Below are positions 18,405 to 27,085 of a stretch of DNA of 64,000 bases, piece by piece. The notes beneath the pieces were generated by a model, which was given only the letters and a program-made list of their open reading frames with translations, made no database searches and was not told the origin of the DNA. This DNA comes from Polaribacter marinaquae (lineage in GTDB: Bacteria; Bacteroidota; Bacteroidia; Flavobacteriales; Flavobacteriaceae): NCBI RefSeq assembly GCF_038019025.1, contig NZ_CP150496.1, forward strand, positions 461,501-525,500. The letters are read 5' to 3'. How positions within the stretch are numbered: the stretch's first letter is position 1; each line of letters starts with the position of its first letter. Made by a program: the position numbers and the translations under genes.

Positions 18405-19148
18405 ATGAAATTTATCCATTTTATATGTCTATTTCTGTTATTTACAGCTTGTAAAAAGACAGAAGTACACCTTACTAAAATTACTGCAAAAAATATTGCG
18501 ATTGATAGTACCCTAGAATCATCAGCAAAAATTGATAGTATCATTGCACCTTATACTAGAAATATGATTGGTGAAATGGAAAAAGTATTAAGTTATGCGC
18601 CTTATAATTTTACCAAAAAAAGCGAAAACAGACAAAGCGCTTTAGGGAATTTAATGGCAGATATGTGTTTTGAAATGGCAAATGCGATGTTTAAAGATAA
18701 AACAAACGCAGCAATCGATTTTTCTATGTTTAACAGTGGTGGTTTGCGTGCAAATATTTCTATGGGAGACGTAACACAAGAAGACGCTTTTAATTTAATG
18801 CCTTTCGAAAATGAGTTGGTTGTTGTGCAACTATCTGGTGCTAAAATAGAAGCGTTGGTAAGCTATTTTATAGCTTCTAAAAGTGCACATCCTTTGTCTA
18901 AAGAAGTTGCATTAAACATCCGTAAAGATGGTTATCAATTAAAAATTAAAGGACAAAATTTTGATAAAAACAAAACCTATCATGTCTTAACATCAGACTA
19001 TTTACAAGGTGGTGGCGATAGCATGAACTTCTTTAAAAATCCTATAAAACTAACAAAGTTAGATTATAAGGTTAGAGATGCCATCATCCATTACTTTCAA
19101 CAAACAGATACCATAAAAGCCGCAATAGATAACCGTGTAACTTTATAA
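18405..19148 (+). CDS. Lipoprotein with 5'-nucleotidase C-terminal (UshA substrate-binding) domain
   Basis: 247 residues. A lipoprotein signal with lipobox FTAC (Cys16) is followed by the C-terminal domain of UshA-type nucleotidases: SALGNLMADMCFEMA, FNSGGLRANISMGDVT, NLMPFENELVVVQLSG and LTSDYLQGGGDSM. This domain binds the nucleotide base. The catalytic metallophosphatase half is encoded separately, 2 bases downstream, so the pair is a split nucleotidase with the halves in reverse order. The lipid anchor would place it on the envelope. The two should act together on nucleotides or nucleotide sugars (inference from homology and adjacency). Confidence 0.88.
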   Translation: MKFIHFICLFLLFTACKKTEVHLTKITAKNIAIDSTLESSAKIDSIIAPYTRNMIGEMEKVLSYAPYNFTKKSENRQSALGNLMADMCFEMANAMFKDKTNAAIDFSMFNSGGLRANISMGDVTQEDAFNLMPFENELVVVQLSGAKIEALVSYFIASKSAHPLSKEVALNIRKDGYQLKIKGQNFDKNKTYHVLTSDYLQGGGDSMNFFKNPIKLTKLDYKVRDAIIHYFQQTDTIKAAIDNRVTL

Positions 19149-19150
19149 TT

Positions 19151-20065
19151 ATGAAAAGAAGAAAATTTATAAAACAATTAGGTGGCGCTGCAGCTTTATC
19201 TATGGTAGATGGTTTGGTTTTACCAACACTTGCTACGAACCATAAGCGTCATATTACTATTTTACATACCAACGATACACATAGTCATATAGAACCTTTT
19301 GATGCAGATCATAGCAGAAACCCAAATAGAGGTGGAGTGGCAAGAAGAGCTACATTGGTAGAACAAATTAGAAAGGAAAACAAAAACACGTTATTGTTAG
19401 ATGCTGGTGATATTTTTCAAGGAACACCGTATTTTAATTATTTTGGTGGCGAGCTTGAGTTTAAGCTAATGAGCATGTTAAAATATGATGTTGCAACCAT
19501 TGGTAATCATGATTTTGACAATTCTATAGAGGGTTTATACAAACAATTGCCCAATGCTAAATTCGATTTTGTTTCTGCGAATTACGATTTTAAAAATACC
19601 GTTTTAGATACGCATGTAAAACCTTATAAAATTATTGTAAAAGATGGTATTAAAATAGGAATCTTTGGTTTAGGTATTGAGCTTGAAGGATTGGTAGGCA
19701 AAAAAATGTATAAAGAAACAGGATATTTAGATCCGGTAGAAATTTCTCAGGATATTACTAAAAAGCTTAAAAATGAAGAAAACTGCGATTTAATTATCTG
19801 TTTATCTCATTTAGGGTATTATTATAAAAATAATCCGAATAAAATTTCTGATCTAAACCTTGCGGAAGCAACCAAAGACATCGATTTAATTATTGGCGGA
19901 CATACACATACCTTTTTACCGAAACCAACACTGGTAAAAAACCTAGACGATAAAAATATATTGGTAAATCAGGTTGGTGCTTATGGTATCAATTTGGGTC
20001 GTATTGATTTTTATTTTGACGAAAACAAAAATAAATCTGCGAATGGTACCACAATTTTAGTTTAA
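19151..20065 (+). CDS. Metallophosphatase domain of split 5'-nucleotidase, Tat-type signal
   Basis: 304 residues. The start KRRKFIKQLGGAAALSM is a twin-arginine signal, so it should be exported folded. The metallophosphatase signature is complete: HTNDTHSHIEPF, LLDAGDIFQGTP, TIGNHDFDNS, CLSHLGYY and IIGGHTHTFL supply the two-metal ligands. It is the N-terminal half of UshA-like 5'-nucleotidases and hydrolyses nucleotide 5'-phosphates or UDP-sugars. The substrate-binding half is the lipoprotein immediately upstream, and the two genes clearly form an operon. Tat export fits metal loading in the cytoplasm before translocation. Confidence 0.9.
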   Translation: MKRRKFIKQLGGAAALSMVDGLVLPTLATNHKRHITILHTNDTHSHIEPFDADHSRNPNRGGVARRATLVEQIRKENKNTLLLDAGDIFQGTPYFNYFGGELEFKLMSMLKYDVATIGNHDFDNSIEGLYKQLPNAKFDFVSANYDFKNTVLDTHVKPYKIIVKDGIKIGIFGLGIELEGLVGKKMYKETGYLDPVEISQDITKKLKNEENCDLIICLSHLGYYYKNNPNKISDLNLAEATKDIDLIIGGHTHTFLPKPTLVKNLDDKNILVNQVGAYGINLGRIDFYFDENKNKSANGTTILV

Positions 20066-20244: not shown

Positions 20245-20326
20245 GGGGAGATACTCAAGCGGCCAACGAGGACGGACTGTAACTCCGTTGACTATGTCTT
20301 CGCAGGTTCGAATCCTGCTCTCCCCA
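20245..20326 (+). tRNA. tRNA-Tyr (anticodon GTA)
   Basis: The 7-bp acceptor stem GGGGAGA pairs with TCTCCCC at 20319-20325, with discriminator A at 20326 and no encoded CCA. The anticodon arm reads CGGACTGTAACTCCG with GTA in the loop. The T arm GCAGGTTCGAATCCTGC is canonical. A long variable arm makes it class II, as expected for bacterial tRNA-Tyr. It marks the left edge of the accessory region, but I found no repeated copy of its 3' end that would show tRNA-targeted integration. Confidence 0.95.
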
Positions 20327-20385
20327 CAACTTGTTTTTCACTTCAAAACACCCCAAAAATCAATATAATTTATCATAATAGTTTG

Positions 20386-20609: not shown

Positions 20610-20864
20610 ATGAAAAAAGAAAAAAAACAACAACCCGCGGTACAAAACAAGCATTTAGCGTATGATGCACATTTGTTAGAAAATGAAGTATGGCTAACTA
20701 CAGAACAAGCCATGGCGCATTTAAATGTTAGCCGCAGCACCATGTATCGTTTACGCAAACAGCACAACATACCTAGTTTTAAATTAGGTCATAGCCCTAT
20801 GTATCCAAAACATTTGTTAAATAAATTGTTTATTAACAAGGCATTGGGCAATGTAAAAATCTAA
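20610..20864 (+). CDS. Small helix-turn-helix (excisionase/MerR-type) DNA-binding protein
   Basis: 84 residues. The core WLTTEQAMAHLNVSRSTMYRLRKQHNIPSFKLGHSPMYPKHLL is a winged helix-turn-helix of the HTH_17/excisionase kind. The first 15 residues are a basic, glutamine-rich tail. Such proteins act as excisionases or small regulators in mobile elements. No integrase is nearby. It has a strong promoter with palindromes upstream and lies convergent to the DUF6266 gene, so it is the natural candidate to bind the palindromes here or the 10-bp array at 21711-21830 (inference). Confidence 0.8.
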   Translation: MKKEKKQQPAVQNKHLAYDAHLLENEVWLTTEQAMAHLNVSRSTMYRLRKQHNIPSFKLGHSPMYPKHLLNKLFINKALGNVKI

Positions 20865-20929
20865 ATAGATTTTATACATAATTTGTAGGTTGTTTATAAA
20901 AAACACCTGATTTTAAAGTATACAAAAAA

Positions 20930-20968
20930 GTGTTTGTACACAACTAACTACTCGTTGTGTGCAAACAC
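20930..20968 (-). terminator. Long hairpin terminator between HTH and DUF6266 genes
   Basis: Arms 20930-20944 (GTGTTTGTACACAAC) and 20954-20968 pair at 14 of 15 positions around a 9-base loop. On the minus strand a T run follows, so it should end the DUF6266 transcript. A weaker outer inverted repeat (TGTAGGTT near 20884-20891, AACCTACA at 20992-20999) encloses it. Confidence 0.7.
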
Positions 20969-21004: not shown

Positions 21005-21646
21005 TTACAGCACCGTAACTGCCCCCATATACGTGCTTATCGCAGCAAAGTTGGTTGATGGTTTGCTAAAAGAGGCCCAAATTTCTACATTAAAAGTTGC
21101 CATAAAATTGGGTAATGTTACACTGGCTGTGGTAGCGCTTCTATCTGCTACAGTGGTGTTGGTATAAAACAAATTTAGATCGGGTGCATACACCACTACC
21201 ATTAAAGTATCGGTAGCGGTTGCTTTGCCTTGGCCGCTATTGTCTTGCCAACTAAAGTTTAGGGTTTGGTTTGCTGCAGCTACCACGGCACCGCCATCAA
21301 TTCCTCTTAAATCGCCTTTACTTATCAACACTTTTGGGTAATCCATTACGGCACCTTGTGGTGTATTTATTACTGCGTTTTTAAGATGGTAAGAGGTTGC
21401 CAAATTGGCTCGCGATTTATCGCCTTGCGCACTGCCAAAATAACTATTTAAAATTTCTACAATCGGACTTAAAAACCCAATTACAGTTTTAAATTTTTGG
21501 CGTTGTTCTGTTTGTTTTTCTGTTGCTGTATAATTACCACGTTGTGGTAAACTACGCATTACATTTTTACCCCTCCATCTAGAGCCTACTACGTTACCTA
21601 CTTTTCCAGAAAATCCGCCTAAGATGCCTTTTTCAAATGTTGCCAT
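21005..21646 (-). CDS. DUF6266-like protein
   Basis: 213 residues. The N-terminus GILGGFSGKVGNVVGSRWRGKNVMRS is the hallmark I associate with DUF6266, a Bacteroidota family of unknown function. The rest is beta-rich, threonine/asparagine-rich and ends in ISTYMGAVTVL. No signal peptide is seen. The glycine- and threonine-rich make-up suggests a self-assembling or phage-structural-like protein, but this is only an impression. Base composition looks GC-richer than the flanking core genes, consistent with transfer. Its promoter (TATGTTTG at 21676-21683) is immediately preceded by twelve phased 10-bp repeats, which suggests unusual control. Confidence 0.75.
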   Translation of the reverse strand: MATFEKGILGGFSGKVGNVVGSRWRGKNVMRSLPQRGNYTATEKQTEQRQKFKTVIGFLSPIVEILNSYFGSAQGDKSRANLATSYHLKNAVINTPQGAVMDYPKVLISKGDLRGIDGGAVVAAANQTLNFSWQDNSGQGKATATDTLMVVVYAPDLNLFYTNTTVADRSATTASVTLPNFMATFNVEIWASFSKPSTNFAAISTYMGAVTVL

Positions 21647-21675: not shown

Positions 21676-21683
21676 CAAACATA
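21676..21683 (-). promoter_or_regulatory. -7 box of the DUF6266 gene
   Basis: Minus strand TATGTTTG matches TAnnTTTG, 30 bases before the ATG at 21646. A CTTG at 21704-21707 sits 20 bases upstream as a possible -33. The 10-bp array begins within four bases of it. Confidence 0.6.
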
Positions 21684-21710
21684 CAGACTAAAGCACACGA
21701 AAACAAGTAC

Positions 21711-21830
21711 TTGACACCTGCTGACACGTATTGACACAAACTGACGTTTTGTAAACGCTTTTGAAACTTTATGACCAAAATTGACCTATTAAGACACGTT
21801 ATGACACATCTTGATACGTACTGACACAGC
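21711..21830. repeat. Twelve tandem 10-bp units, consensus nTGACACnnn
   Basis: Every 10 bases from 21711 a TGA core recurs: TTGACACCTG, CTGACACGTA, TTGACACAAA, CTGACGTTTT, GTAAACGCTT, TTGAAACTTT, ATGACCAAAA, TTGACCTATT, AAGACACGTT, ATGACACATC, TTGATACGTA, CTGACACAGC. Position 2 is T in 11 of 12, position 3 G in 11 of 12, position 4 A in all, position 5 C in 9. The middle units are the most diverged. The period is one DNA helical turn and not a multiple of three, so this is a protein-binding-type array, not a coding repeat. It spans about -41 to -160 relative to the predicted DUF6266 mRNA start. Confidence 0.85.
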
Positions 21831-21906
21831 TACGCAAATTTTATAGTGATTTATTCGAGTTTGCTTCGGGGTTTGTTCGGGTGCGGGTAGGGGTTATTTT
21901 TAAAAA

Positions 21907-22077
21907 ATGGACTTTTTACGGAGAATTCTACTAGCAAACTGGTATCAGGCTGCTAACAATTGGTTTAAAAATGCAGGGTGTCGTTTGTATTTTAAGATAC
22001 CAAACTCTTGGTTAGAAGATTTTATAAAAACAAATTTAAAGTTATGTAAAAACGTTTTTATTACGCAAGCCCTGTAA
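21907..22077 (+). CDS. Possible small ORF (56 residues), unknown
   Basis: An open frame from ATG at 21907 to TAA at 22075-22077 reads MDFLRRILLANWYQAANNWF and ends in FITQAL, with many aromatic residues. No homologue is recognised and no promoter or ribosome site is evident. It lies in the otherwise gene-free 0.9 kb between the DUF6266 promoter array and the restriction operon. It may be a chance frame. Confidence 0.22.
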   Translation: MDFLRRILLANWYQAANNWFKNAGCRLYFKIPNSWLEDFIKTNLKLCKNVFITQAL

Positions 22078-22545: not shown

Positions 22546-25185
22546 TTACATTCCGGTTATCAATTCCTTTGCTTTGTCCAACGTAAATGCTCCATCAACT
22601 TCCTTCTTGTCAAAAATCATAAAATAAGAAAAGTCGTGTCCAGCTTGCCTTTCCCATTCGTTTCCGAGTCTGCATTTTCCTTCGCTGTCTGAACCATCCA
22701 AATGGTCTCCTTTTGTCTCGATTAAAATGGTTTTCCCAGATTTAGTTCTCAAAATAAAGTCAGGATAATGATTGGCTTTAAATCCGTTGATGTAAAATCC
22801 TTTCCCTCTTTCTAAATTTCTATGCCAAAACTCAATATTAGAAGAAGTTCCGATTTCCATTATTACTCTTTCCTCAAAGTTGTTCATTGTTCCTTCTTTT
22901 TCATACAATGAATTTCCGATTGAAGAACCAACATTTCCAGGAACAATTTCCTTTGCTAATTTCCAGTTTTCTTTTGCAGTTATTCGCTTTGATTTAATTA
23001 AATCCATAAATCTAGTTTCTGCGTAAGCATCTGATAATTTTCTAATATGTGCCTTAATTTTATCTGTATAACTCCATTTTCTAACTAAAATGTCACGCAT
23101 TTGTTCTGCGTTCATTCCGTTTAGTATTCTACCAACATAAACTTTTATTTCTTGGTCTGGAATAGGATACATATTTCCAATAATCTGCATTATTTGATGT
23201 GTAATATCGCTTATTTGAGCATCTTTTGGTTTTGCCAAAATATATTCTGCAATTGGGTCTTTTACTTGACTTTCTTCAATTTTCACCCAATCTGGTGTGT
23301 AATTATCTTTTACAGTTTCTGTTAAATCTACTTTGTATAAATCAGATGATATTTTGTCAAAGTCGATTTTTGTATCTTCATCTGAAAGTTTGAAATCTTT
23401 CAATAAAGATTCTCTGTTTAATAATTCTTGGTCAGTTCCAAAAATATCGCTTGCTGTTACCTTTAGAAAAAATTGAGGAAAATCTATTTTATTAATGATT
23501 CCTTTGTTTGCTTCTTTTACTCGATAGCGTTTAACTTTATCTCCCATTTCTTGAAAAATATTTTCGTCAACAGGTTGTTTTTCCTGTTCCTTTATTTGCT
23601 GTTCTAATTCATTATTTTCTTCTTTAGAAATTGATTCCATTTCTTGATTGAAAGGATTATTTTCAATTTCCTCTTCACTTGCATTTGGGTCGAATGAAAT
23701 ACGCTTTTTATCAATTGTTTCTTCTTCGGTTTCTTTTTGTTGCTCCGGAAATAGAAAAGACTCAACAGGATTTACAACTTCTGTTTGCTTTTCTTCTTCT
23801 GTCATTTTATCTGAAACTCTGTGTTCATTTCCACTAAATCCAGATGCTTTTAGACCTTCAACAATACTTTGTAATGTGTCATTAAATTTTGCCGAAGCTG
23901 TAAGAACATAAGAAAGGTTTAATTGAAACGCTTTATGTTTTTGAACGTAAGGTTGACGAAGTACACGACCTAAAATTTGCTCAACATCTACTGCACTCGA
24001 TTTATCTGCCAATGACGCTAATATGTATGCAAATGGACAATCCCAACCTTCTTTTAAAGCGTTTATTGTTATGATATAACGAACTTCACAATCTTTACTT
24101 TGTAAATTTGGAATGCTTTTAAGTTCGTCAATATTAGCAGTCTTGATTTTTATTTGATTTTCTGGAATGCCTAAACCTAATAATTGTTCTTTTAATTTCT
24201 CAAAAGTTGTGTTGTCATTTTTTGTTTTTGGCTGTGCCTGAAACAAAACGATTGGTCTAATGTATTTTCCACCATCAGCTTCTTCTTTTTTTGCAAGTAT
24301 TTCTAATTTGCGTTGTAAATGTAAAGCGTTGTTAATGACTTCTGTTTTATCGTGATTGTTGTAAACGATAACAGGAAGTTTAACCATATGTTCTTTTTTT
24401 AGTTCAATTGCAGGAACTAAACTCACAATATTACTATTGTCTTTTGGCGTTGCAGTTAAATCTAAAATAAAAGATGGATTTAAGTTTTTAAGCATATCTA
24501 CGCTCAAATCACTTTCTGCATTATGGCTTTCGTCAACCACCAAAACAGGATGTAAACTTCTAATAACATTAATTAAAGCAGTATCGTCAACATCTTCCAA
24601 AATATGTTTTCTATTTGCGTATTGAGGAACAAAAGAAGCCAATTCACCATTTTCTTGATATACTTTTCTATCTTCTTTTTTCCTAGCTCGTAAACTGGCG
24701 AAACTTAAAACAAATATGCTTAACTGTTCTTTTACTATTGTAGGATTGAAATTTGAACCTTGTAGTAAATCCTCTTTTTGATAAATTTCAACTTTGTGAT
24801 TAAAAAGTGCATTTAGTTTTTGGCGATATGGATGGTCTGAACTTGACAAAGCATTTACCGTTTGTTGTAATAAATTGCTCCAAGGTACTAACCAAATAAC
24901 TGCCTTTGTTTTACTTGTATCATAAGCCGAAAAAATTGAATTCAATGCATTTACAGCAATAAAAGTTTTTCCACCAGCAGTTGGCACTTTTATACAAACG
25001 TGTGCTGAATTTGGAATGTTATTTTTGTAAGGTTGCATTCCTGTATTATCCAAAGGATTATATGGCCCAATTTTATCTTCCCAGTATTGGTTAAATGCAG
25101 TTGCTACATTCTTATGTTCTTGAACATATTCCAAATATTCTTCAAGATTTTCTATTACTTTCTGTTGATAGCTTTTTAATTCCAT
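22546..25185 (-). CDS. res: Type III restriction enzyme, Res subunit
   Basis: 879 residues. Superfamily 2 helicase motifs: Walker A PTAGGKT at 68-74, DESH at 218-221, LTATP following, INALKEGWDCP, and VEQILGRVLRQP (motif VI). The C-terminus carries a PD-(D/E)xK nuclease: D809 (YPDFIL), then E823 and K825 (LIETKGD). With the Mod protein encoded immediately upstream (3-base gap) it should cleave unmodified DNA between two head-to-head sites, using ATP to communicate between them. It appears intact. Its stop codon abuts the hairpin repeat at 22468-22542. Confidence 0.93.
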   Translation of the reverse strand: MELKSYQQKVIENLEEYLEYVQEHKNVATAFNQYWEDKIGPYNPLDNTGMQPYKNNIPNSAHVCIKVPTAGGKTFIAVNALNSIFSAYDTSKTKAVIWLVPWSNLLQQTVNALSSSDHPYRQKLNALFNHKVEIYQKEDLLQGSNFNPTIVKEQLSIFVLSFASLRARKKEDRKVYQENGELASFVPQYANRKHILEDVDDTALINVIRSLHPVLVVDESHNAESDLSVDMLKNLNPSFILDLTATPKDNSNIVSLVPAIELKKEHMVKLPVIVYNNHDKTEVINNALHLQRKLEILAKKEEADGGKYIRPIVLFQAQPKTKNDNTTFEKLKEQLLGLGIPENQIKIKTANIDELKSIPNLQSKDCEVRYIITINALKEGWDCPFAYILASLADKSSAVDVEQILGRVLRQPYVQKHKAFQLNLSYVLTASAKFNDTLQSIVEGLKASGFSGNEHRVSDKMTEEEKQTEVVNPVESFLFPEQQKETEEETIDKKRISFDPNASEEEIENNPFNQEMESISKEENNELEQQIKEQEKQPVDENIFQEMGDKVKRYRVKEANKGIINKIDFPQFFLKVTASDIFGTDQELLNRESLLKDFKLSDEDTKIDFDKISSDLYKVDLTETVKDNYTPDWVKIEESQVKDPIAEYILAKPKDAQISDITHQIMQIIGNMYPIPDQEIKVYVGRILNGMNAEQMRDILVRKWSYTDKIKAHIRKLSDAYAETRFMDLIKSKRITAKENWKLAKEIVPGNVGSSIGNSLYEKEGTMNNFEERVIMEIGTSSNIEFWHRNLERGKGFYINGFKANHYPDFILRTKSGKTILIETKGDHLDGSDSEGKCRLGNEWERQAGHDFSYFMIFDKKEVDGAFTLDKAKELITGM

Positions 25186-25188
25186 AAT

Positions 25189-26883
25189 TTAAAATCTTGT
25201 AATATCTCTTGGTATTTTTTTAAAAATGATGTTGTTTTTTGCCATAAAATCTCTTGGTAACAAACAGTTATCTGCATATATAACATATTGTTCACCTTTT
25301 GTCTTTATAATTTCTAAAGCATCAAAATCTAAAGTAGTTAGCATACTTTTTTCGTAGATGAAGTAATAAACTGAATTGTCTTTTTTACCTAAAAAGTAAT
25401 TTGCTCCTTGTGATTCTTTAAAATGTGTTCTGGTTTCTGAAAACCAAATATATTCTCGGATTTTACCTATTCCAACCTGTTCATTTAAGTTGTGATTTTC
25501 ATCAAAAAGAGGTAAGCCCAATTCGTAAAAATCAAAATCTCCACCAGTTCCTTCAATTTTTTTGTCTCCTTTGCCATAACCTTTTGAAGCTCGTTTATTC
25601 CTTTCTGCTGTTATATCATTGGCATAATCTTCCATTTCTACTAAAATGAACTTTCTATTACCATTGTCTTTTTTATTTAAATTTAGAACAGCATTACCTG
25701 TGGTACCTGAACCAGCAAATGAATCTAGAATTATTGCATTTTTATCCTTGATTGCTATGTTGATTAGATATTCTACAAGTTTTGATGGTTTAGCAAAATC
25801 GAATTTGATACCAAGTTTTAATAATTCTTTCGAACCGTGTCTGTTCTCATATTCAGAAATCAAATTTGTTGGCGTTTGACCTTCTTCCTGTCTTTTTTTG
25901 AGCCAAATTTTAGTATATATATTCCATTTTGCTGGGTTACCATTAGAGTCAATTAATACTTCATTTTTTGTTTTCTTAAAAACGATATTTCCTTCTTTCT
26001 TTTCTTTTAAGTATCTTTCTGCTGTCCATCTCCAAACTTTGTCATTTTTAGTTTGAGGTGGTATTGAAGCACCATCTGTAACTTTATCGGGAAAAATGTT
26101 TCCATTTGGTATAACAAATGTTCCATCAGGACATTCTATATAATATCTTTGGTTTACGCATCCTCTCAATGGGTCTAGAGTTGATTGATAAAGACCAAAA
26201 GCTCGATAATTTTCACCTTTTCTTTTTCCTTCTTTCTCTACTTGATTGTATAATTTTTTTACCAACTTTTCATCTAATTCAGCTTTGAAATCAGAAACGT
26301 TTGATTTATTTCTAGCATACACTAAAACATAATCTATATTTGGCGAAAAATAGTTTCCTTTATTTCCTCCTGATTTCATTACTCTGGAAACTATACCGCA
26401 TTTATTTAGACCTCCAAATATTTCATCACATAAAGTTTTCAGATTACTAATTTCATCTTCTCCTATACTAATAAATATAATGCCATCTTGAGATAATAAT
26501 TTATGAAGTAATTGTAAACGAGGATACATCATACACAACCATTTATCGTGTCTGGTTAAATCGTCACCATCTTTTCCCACGACTTCTCCCAGCCACTTTT
26601 TAATTTTTGGATGGTTGACATTGTCATTATAAACCCAACTTTCGTTCCCTGTATTGTAAGGTGGGTCAATGTAGATACATTTTACTTTTCCAGCATATTC
26701 AGGTAATAAACTTTTGAGAGCTTCTAAATTGTCTCCGTGTATTATTTTATTTCCGCTTTCTGTTGGTTCGGTTTGTTCTCCTTTTTTAGCAGTAAAGCCG
26801 TATTTGTGTTCCAAAACTCTGTAAGGTACATCTTGATGATGGCTTATAACTTTGTCTTTTCCTATCCAATTGAGTGTTGGCAT
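25189..26883 (-). CDS. mod: Type III DNA adenine-N6 methyltransferase, Mod subunit
   Basis: 564 residues of the beta-class amino-methyltransferase type: the catalytic motif DPPYNTG (73-79) precedes the SAM-binding motif DSFAGSGTTGNAV (near 390). The region between holds the target-recognition domain, which determines the recognition sequence and cannot be predicted by eye. It methylates adenine in an asymmetric site and gives the Res subunit its specificity. No simple-sequence tract that would cause phase variation is evident in the coding region. Gene order hth-mod-res with 1- and 3-base gaps shows one operon. Confidence 0.93.
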   Translation of the reverse strand: MPTLNWIGKDKVISHHQDVPYRVLEHKYGFTAKKGEQTEPTESGNKIIHGDNLEALKSLLPEYAGKVKCIYIDPPYNTGNESWVYNDNVNHPKIKKWLGEVVGKDGDDLTRHDKWLCMMYPRLQLLHKLLSQDGIIFISIGEDEISNLKTLCDEIFGGLNKCGIVSRVMKSGGNKGNYFSPNIDYVLVYARNKSNVSDFKAELDEKLVKKLYNQVEKEGKRKGENYRAFGLYQSTLDPLRGCVNQRYYIECPDGTFVIPNGNIFPDKVTDGASIPPQTKNDKVWRWTAERYLKEKKEGNIVFKKTKNEVLIDSNGNPAKWNIYTKIWLKKRQEEGQTPTNLISEYENRHGSKELLKLGIKFDFAKPSKLVEYLINIAIKDKNAIILDSFAGSGTTGNAVLNLNKKDNGNRKFILVEMEDYANDITAERNKRASKGYGKGDKKIEGTGGDFDFYELGLPLFDENHNLNEQVGIGKIREYIWFSETRTHFKESQGANYFLGKKDNSVYYFIYEKSMLTTLDFDALEIIKTKGEQYVIYADNCLLPRDFMAKNNIIFKKIPRDITRF

Positions 26884-26884
26884 A

Positions 26885-27085
26885 TTATTGTTGGTCTTTA
26901 TTAGATATTATTAATTCTTTCACGTCCACATCTAAAATATTGGCAATCTCCATTAAGGTTTCCAATCTTGGTTGTTGTCTGTTTTGAGCATAAGCATTTA
27001 CCATATTGTAGCTTTTGCCTAGTTTTTCAGCCAACCAAGTTTGCTTTATTCCTTTCTGTTCCAACACTTCCTTAATTCGGTTCAT
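26885..27085 (-). CDS. Small XRE-type regulator heading the R-M operon
   Basis: 66 residues, nearly all one Cro/CI-type helix-turn-helix: IKQTWLAEKLGKSYNMVNAYAQNRQQPRLETLMEIANIL. The gene ends one base before mod. By analogy with controller (C) proteins of type II systems, it probably times or limits expression of mod and res when the system enters a new cell (inference). No Bacteroidota -7 box was found in the 90 bases upstream, so its promoter is unplaced. Confidence 0.85.
   Translation of the reverse strand: MNRIKEVLEQKGIKQTWLAEKLGKSYNMVNAYAQNRQQPRLETLMEIANILDVDVKELIISNKDQQ

Follow-up and report, generated by a model that had tools for sequence, protein, structure and literature searches.

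Which role does a regular run of twelve short direct repeats play directly upstream of a DUF6266 gene, and is it a complete element? This question is raised by a 64,000-nt stretch of DNA from Polaribacter marinaquae (hereafter the window, whose positions serve as coordinates throughout), in which the repeat array lies at 21710..21829 on the plus strand and the gene for the DUF6266 protein (213 aa; PF19781, E 1.1e-36, 126.7 bits compared with a gathering score of 23.4) at 21005..21646 on the minus strand. The array proves to be one of two halves, the other being a conserved core; the joint element goes with a single DUF6266 subfamily and is also found in copies that lack a gene. Regarding its role, we lean narrowly towards an extended cooperative operator, on which a filament of a small helix-turn-helix (HTH) protein of the HTH_17 family would form between the core and the DUF6266 promoter.

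An array joined to a conserved core

The array consists of twelve 10-bp direct-repeat units of the form nnTGACACnn, as described in a first-pass annotation of this DNA, and the word reads GTGTCA on the DUF6266 strand. In the register starting at 21710, the units are CTTGACACCT, GCTGACACGT, ATTGACACAA, ACTGACGTTT, TGTAAACGCT, TTTGAAACTT, TATGACCAAA, ATTGACCTAT, TAAGACACGT, TATGACACAT, CTTGATACGT, and ACTGACACAG. This register is unbroken from 21710 to 21829, and the A reported at position 4 (register 21711) is indeed present in 12 of 12 units. Shuffles, the comparison of strains, and homologous arrays all support the assignment. Self-identity reached 0.54 at a lag of 10, 0.53 at a lag of 20, and 0.50 at a lag of 30, compared with 0.17–0.32 at the remaining lags between 2 and 29. 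The 12 × 10 information score of the array was 8.92 bits and thus the top value of the window, while the best score was 4.73 once 21681–21850 was taken out. The annotation had named shuffling as a check on the period, and the period was not reproduced by 500 dinucleotide shuffles, which reached a maximum of 5.68.

The conserved stretch had been thought to end at 21830, whereas a comparison of the window with a second strain of the same species puts its end at approximately 21925. Behind the array, a spacer (21830..21845, plus strand), across which the offset from the array register to the core is kept in relatives, leads to a core of about 21846 to 21925. The conserved arm of the core (21846..21889, plus strand) comprises three 11-bp direct repeats, GTGATTTATTC, GAGTTTGCTTC, and GGGGTTTGTTC (family consensus GGGTTTTGTTC), together with a fourth, degenerate copy. 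It is followed by the AT-rich palindrome TATTTTTAAAAAAT (21895..21908, unstranded, read from the sequence) and the remnant of an inverted arm (21909..21925, unstranded), which reads GAACAAGACCC-GAAGCAAAC in some other core copies. In an alignment of six Polaribacter copies, TTCGGGGTTTGTTCGGG was invariant and the same architecture was found, with the 11-bp repeats followed by a G-rich stretch, then by the AT-rich palindrome, and lastly by an inverted arm that is more degenerate. The initial description was correct for the array itself, but missed the core half and the gene-free copies.

Between the two strains, the array differed at 7 of 120 positions without any indel, and the spacer and core at only 2 of 96. 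The corresponding values were 40 of 642 for the DUF6266 coding sequence, 11 of 63 for the leader and promoter, and 81 of 364 for the right flank. None of the array changes fell into the TGA triplets (0/36, compared with 7/84 elsewhere in the units; p 0.10). A decay of the central units, which had been considered, was not borne out, as these units are kept in the second strain and the related word CAAAC-N5-GTTTG occurs there and in other Polaribacter. In the window, the central units form an imperfect inverted repeat at 21738–21752, and its perfect form, CAAAC-N5-GTTTG, is present in the second strain and in the loci L050 and L205; possibly, this is the site of a second protein.

Fixed register to the promoter and the two partner genes

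On the gene strand, the edge of the array and the promoter read TGTCA-N5-TTG-N20-TATGTTTG, with the ATG of DUF6266 37 nt further (positions by eye). The TTG (21704..21706, minus strand) would serve as the −33 element and TATGTTTG (21676..21683, minus strand, read from the sequence) as the −7 element. Promoters of Bacteroidota carry TTG or TTTG near −33 and TAnnTTTG near −7, and the arrangement in the window agrees with this consensus. The earlier statement that the array abuts a promoter holds, since the first TGTCA ends 5 bp before the TTG on the minus strand.

This geometry was followed across relatives after removal of duplicate loci, with related genomes treated as independent in the counts of array phase, core to −7 distance, and partner genes. 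A −7 match was found in 25 of the 32 DUF6266 loci examined, and seven had none by the strict rule. When these 25 loci were aligned on the −7 element without gaps, 148 of 186 TCA/ACA words shared one phase. Relative to the core, the array phase was identical in 43 of 58 arrays and at most one base off in 57 (the phase of one array could not be called). For the distance from core to −7, 30 loci other than the window were used, with looser −7 rules where the strict rule failed. One residue modulo 10 was favoured (15 exact, 23 within one base), with an R of 0.71 at period 10 and lower values at other periods. In Polaribacter and Wenyingzhuangia, the distances were mostly 155, 165, 175, 185, and 235, and the 165 of the window (by hand) belongs to the commonest residue class. 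The suggestion of a helically phased array that presents one face per turn to the DUF6266 promoter is thus strengthened, as relatives from different genera keep the array in the same register to −7.

Clustering of open reading frames (ORFs) around the elements placed DUF6266 at 38 loci, reading away from the array. Among 26 distinct named loci with DUF6266, the array score was at least 13 in 21 and at least 20 in 19. The DUF6266 genes of 15 other genomes were divided by score. Of the low-scoring ones (74 to 146 bits), 19 of 20 lay within approximately 500 bp of a core, compared with none of five high-scoring genes (about 300 bits or more), with seven short fragments omitted from this count. 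The single low-scoring gene away from a core comes from Myroides; G378, also among the 15 genomes, holds a gene-free copy and no DUF6266. In a table of 36 Polaribacter genomes, a low-scoring DUF6266 gene and a strong core match coincided in the same five (Fisher p 2.7e-6; four weak core matches with E 0.001 to 0.01 were set negative, and unlisted genomes were assumed to have been searched). The genome of the window has a second, high-scoring DUF6266 gene (L001 1465–2106), and no array was found in the 465 bp read upstream of it. The proposed tie between array and DUF6266 stands for one subfamily and, within the stretch read, not for this second gene. Absence from all homologues, which the annotation had regarded as decisive, was not observed; the array is present at homologues of other genera, though not at every one.

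The second partner is a gene for an HTH_17 protein of 84 aa (20610..20864, plus strand), which is convergent with DUF6266 and matches PF12728 (E 2.9e-10; 40.7 bits, cut-off 27). By ORF clustering, a small HTH_17 protein was present at 29 loci, in most cases on the far side of DUF6266 and in convergent orientation. Among 34 rows with DUF6266, an all-frame profile search with duplicates removed detected it in 28, and among 71 rows lacking DUF6266 it was detected in none; if loci fetched twice are included (111 rows), the counts are 32 of 38 and 0 of 73. Matches to both proteins were counted anywhere in the fetched stretch. BldC was the top structural and profile match of the HTH protein. The fold of the model (compared over residues 25–84) also matches excisionases of the lambda Xis type, and profile matches to phage excisionase families were obtained, with the score against TIGR01764 under the cut-off. 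The gene had been put forward earlier as a candidate for the binder, and its restriction to DUF6266-holding stretches and the resemblance of its model to the filament-forming BldC and to Xis speak in favour of this proposal.

For the DUF6266 protein, the model predicts a disordered N-terminus (residues 1–33), a helix pair, and a C-terminal Fn3-like beta sandwich, the fold comparison covering residues 111–213. A terminator-like hairpin with a T run follows the gene at 20924..20968 (minus strand; by reading, no terminator scan was run). A role as a defence system was considered and dismissed, as PADLOC returned nothing for DUF6266 and a weak mad1 match for the HTH protein.

Distribution and copies without a gene

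A three-unit array pattern matched in 5 of 59 genomes, the genome of the window included. The match lay beside a DUF6266 gene in four of these five, two of which also had a match at a DUF6266-free place, and in the fifth genome (G052) no array of greater length was found. A model of the core, built from sequence only, matched in 20 of 116 Polaribacter genomes, six of these only with E 0.001 to 0.01. With a degenerate pattern of the conserved arm, 92 stretches were collected from a named genome collection, 80 of them listed by name. As the search pattern fixes this arm, its conservation among the 92 loci is partly given by construction, which does not apply to the associations with array, DUF6266, and HTH. 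Seventy of the 80 presumably belong to Flavobacteriia (class assigned from names), and the other ten comprise Bacteroidales or other Bacteroidia, a Pedobacter, an uncultured bacterium, and metagenome-assembled genomes labelled Betaproteobacteria, Beijerinckiaceae, and Blautia. When scored as a 10-bp array, the sequence preceding the core reached at least 20 in 45 of the 92 stretches, compared with 2 of 220 control windows taken from these loci. The word of the array differs by lineage (TGTCCATAAT in Salegentibacter, TTGAGACGAT in Mariniflexile, TGGCACA in Algibacter), and the number of units varies, one relative having as many as 19 similar ones. The six Myroides loci had no array (scores of 0.2 or less). 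In three Flavobacterium loci (L107, L122, and L158), a core without a 10-bp array precedes a different gene family that starts with MAKIIPTGYPIPKR (partly by reading).

A broader core model gave between 1 and 36 matches in each of 16 genomes, which had been chosen for holding cores and in which many places matched on both strands; the single match belongs to the genome of the window. Only 1 of 37 gene-free rows overlapped an ORF of at least 110 aa. Their neighbours showed all orientations, and the idea that these copies act as operators of a regulon was rejected for this lack of orientation bias. A DUF6266-type promoter scored far above control windows in 8 of 35 gene-free copies, and three more were barely over the 99% point of the controls; in the leave-one-out control, 24 of 25 DUF6266 promoters scored at least 16.6 and one scored −28.9. 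No remnant of DUF6266 was found in the up to 1.8 kb searched at the eight promoter-keeping copies. Three of the gene-free rows (L118, L137, and L175) pass the simple 10-bp test only and have an array score below 0. At L191 (about 2180–2400), array and DUF6266-type promoter stand directly before an unrelated, oxidoreductase-like gene (by reading). Three gene-free copies from Mariniflexile (L105, L139, and L166) have another dispersed repeat of the CGTCATTGCGA...GCAATCT type on the promoter side (by reading).

Possible traces of copying were found in G367, where the unit from the core to the DUF6266 terminator is present at two distant places with 93% identity over 1081 bp, and homology between the two stops just past the equivalent hairpin. 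Two further copies in this genome end within the gene, at different points. Downstream of trkH, a gene-free copy is present in G001 and G009, and 13 other genomes fetched for this site showed a short gap (eight) or a longer gap (five), none with the element (by reading). Presence and absence at this orthologous site were thus observed, with loss as an alternative. Together, these observations are consistent with a copying process that truncates the gene side to varying extents. At the outer ends, neither a sharp end nor a target-site duplication was found in the copies read, and inverted arms occurred in the core only. No transposase or integrase was noticed in the 25 largest ORF clusters (one example each, by reading; no profile search was made). 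A Y1-transposase-like ORF (by reading) lies 3 kb from the element in L047, the only relative in which one was noticed. A phage origin was not supported. Of 15 viral stretches that contain a 17-base piece of the core, 14 have at most one TGAC in the preceding 130 bases, and the remaining one, L068, has four that are, by eye, not in 10-bp steps.

A proposed filament operator, its rivals, and known relatives

The fixed phase at both ends, the free drift of the word, and the frequent HTH partner with a filament-type fold make a filament of the HTH protein the best fit to these data. We infer that HTH_17 proteins from the neighbouring gene would bind the array head to tail, one protomer per 10-bp turn and all on one face of the DNA. 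The resulting nucleoprotein filament would run from the 11-bp-repeat core to the −33 box and could set the activity of the DUF6266 promoter, by repression or by activation. Its opposite, equally fixed end would be the core, which may nucleate the filament or bind a different protein. Array and core would also have been copied through the genome as a dispersed repeat, in some copies together with the promoter or a portion of the gene. A more far-reaching version is possible but doubtful, namely a previously undescribed, self-contained module of Flavobacteriia in which a BldC-like protein coats the array and so forms a ruler that reaches from core to promoter, the word drifts freely while the spacing is kept, and gene-free operator copies spread. 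One test of the filament operator lent it no support. The covariation of the array word with the HTH protein was confounded with DUF6266 and had to be discarded, as it failed to separate the two proteins and, if anything, favoured DUF6266.

A rival view takes DUF6266 itself as the binder, autoregulating its own gene while the HTH protein has another target. The word tracks DUF6266 slightly better than HTH, also after controlling for HTH, and the N-terminus, which is predicted to be disordered, contains many K and R residues (by reading). However, residues 1–60 track the array least (r 0.26), and DUF6266 folds into a beta sandwich where it is structured, while the HTH protein has a DNA-binding fold, which makes this explanation quite improbable. 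Greater weight, if still on the unlikely side, is due to the view that array and core are primarily a non-autonomous mobile element, similar to a miniature inverted-repeat transposable element (MITE) or a repetitive extragenic palindromic (REP) element, with the HTH_17 protein as an excisionase-like helper, DUF6266 as passenger or helper, and the fit to the promoter as secondary. It accounts for the up to 36 core matches per genome, the duplicated and truncated units in G367, the occupied trkH site in G001 and G009, the retained promoters without gene remnants, and an HTH fold that matches excisionases as well as BldC. It is opposed by the lack of a noticed transposase or integrase, of sharp ends, and of target-site duplications within the scopes given above, by the Fn3-like fold of the C-terminal part of DUF6266, by the lack of any DUF6266 match in phage and plasmid records, and by a register to the promoter that is constant across genera. 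The mobile-element view explains the gene-free copies better than the filament does; the two are partly compatible and may hold together.

Three further explanations carry far less weight. Iterons and partition sites resemble the element in their phased repeats, AT-rich palindrome, and several copies per genome, so that a centromere-, origin-, or nucleoid-type site, at which a small DNA-binding protein organises or segregates the chromosome, might be proposed. This is very improbable given that the matches in Polaribacter are confined to 20 of 116 genomes, with six of the 20 close to chance level, and given a single match in the genome of the window, and no partition or replication gene noticed in the 25 largest ORF clusters (by reading). 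An action as RNA or as a single-stranded hairpin is more improbable still, although the core is an imperfect inverted repeat and 41 of 95 cores fold at z < −2 (mean z −2.27). The own right arm of a core ranks 42nd of 95 (median) as its pairing partner, and pairing within loci is beyond chance (p 0.006) but only slightly above that between loci. Furthermore, the consensus fold shows little covariation, one whole element was no stabler than shuffles on either strand, and Rfam returned only two tRNAs for five loci; folding, Rfam, consensus fold, and arm-swap test thus gave an RNA element little support, and it was dropped. Least credible of all is a neutral minisatellite that arose by slippage and was retained by chance, as the variable number of units would allow, since the register to both ends is kept across genera and array and core diverge between strains as slowly as coding DNA.

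Literature searches for DUF6266 did not return the name (most subscription papers were outside their scope), and those on dispersed repeats of Flavobacteria or Bacteroidetes, Polaribacter repeats, phased repeats at Flavobacterium promoters, and HTH or excisionase direct repeats returned no such element by title or abstract start. Several extragenic copies per genome, a trait of MITE and REP elements, were found in relatives, and one copy in the genome of the window. REP elements and their RAYT transposases combine dispersed intergenic palindromic copies with a gene-linked copy, as is found here for the dispersed and gene-linked copies; unlike there, a Y1-transposase-like ORF is near the element only in L047. 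The closest counterparts in print are the operators of BldC, the BrickBuilt MITEs, and the repeats of the TAACTGA type. BldC operators of Streptomyces are direct repeats of varying number, each bound by one winged HTH (wHTH) protomer, head to tail, with the 9-bp sequence AATTnnnnC (PMC5859096). The array of the window shares the asymmetric direct repeats, their variable number, and a spacing of about one per helical turn, but its step is 10 bp, its word is of the TGACAC type, and it does not fit the BldC consensus; the words of Salegentibacter contain AATT without C at the BldC position (by reading). The 11-bp core and the dispersed gene-free copies are features of the present element that the part of that paper available to us does not mention for BldC.

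Excisionases and recombination directionality factors, such as lambda Xis and RdfS, are small wHTH proteins that oligomerise head to tail on DNA (PMC11963761). The HTH protein of the window shares their fold according to its model, and differs in that no integrase was noticed beside the module in the survey of ORF clusters described above. BrickBuilt, a MITE of Porphyromonas gingivalis, is likewise a dispersed intergenic element of a Bacteroidota genome with a tandem array (23-nt units) and promoter elements, and DUF6266, the HTH partner, and the helical phasing set the present element apart from it as described in the accessible part of that source (PMC4596501). TAACTGA repeats are intergenic 7-bp heptamers of variable number, found in some Bacteroidetes as well, mostly a few bases before a start codon (PMC4679880); they share the short intergenic direct repeats and variable number with our element, which has 10-bp units instead. 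Judged from its sequence, the element may join a polymerising wHTH operator to a dispersed repeat, each of a known kind.

Few systems are known in which a regulator polymerises on direct repeats. If the filament operator is correct, dozens of arrays with differing words and unit numbers and one geometry would form a natural series, in which many arrays beside their candidate protein would allow sequence readout, spacing, and oligomerisation to be separated. It would also offer a first handle on DUF6266 and account for a dispersed-repeat family.

Around the module, the element is followed in the window by a type III restriction-modification pair (22546–25185 and 25189–26883), with a small HTH_3 gene (26885–27085) beside it, and type I restriction-modification genes were seen near the element in the relatives L047 (Pfam), L049, and L050 (both by reading). 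On the other side, 18405–20065 encodes a UshA-like enzyme as two adjacent genes, a 5'-nucleotidase C-terminal half and a metallophosphatase half. A tRNA-Tyr gene (20245–20327) lies just upstream of the HTH_17 gene. L049 and L050 likewise have tRNA genes within approximately 2 kb of the module, and the site may therefore be a common insertion spot.
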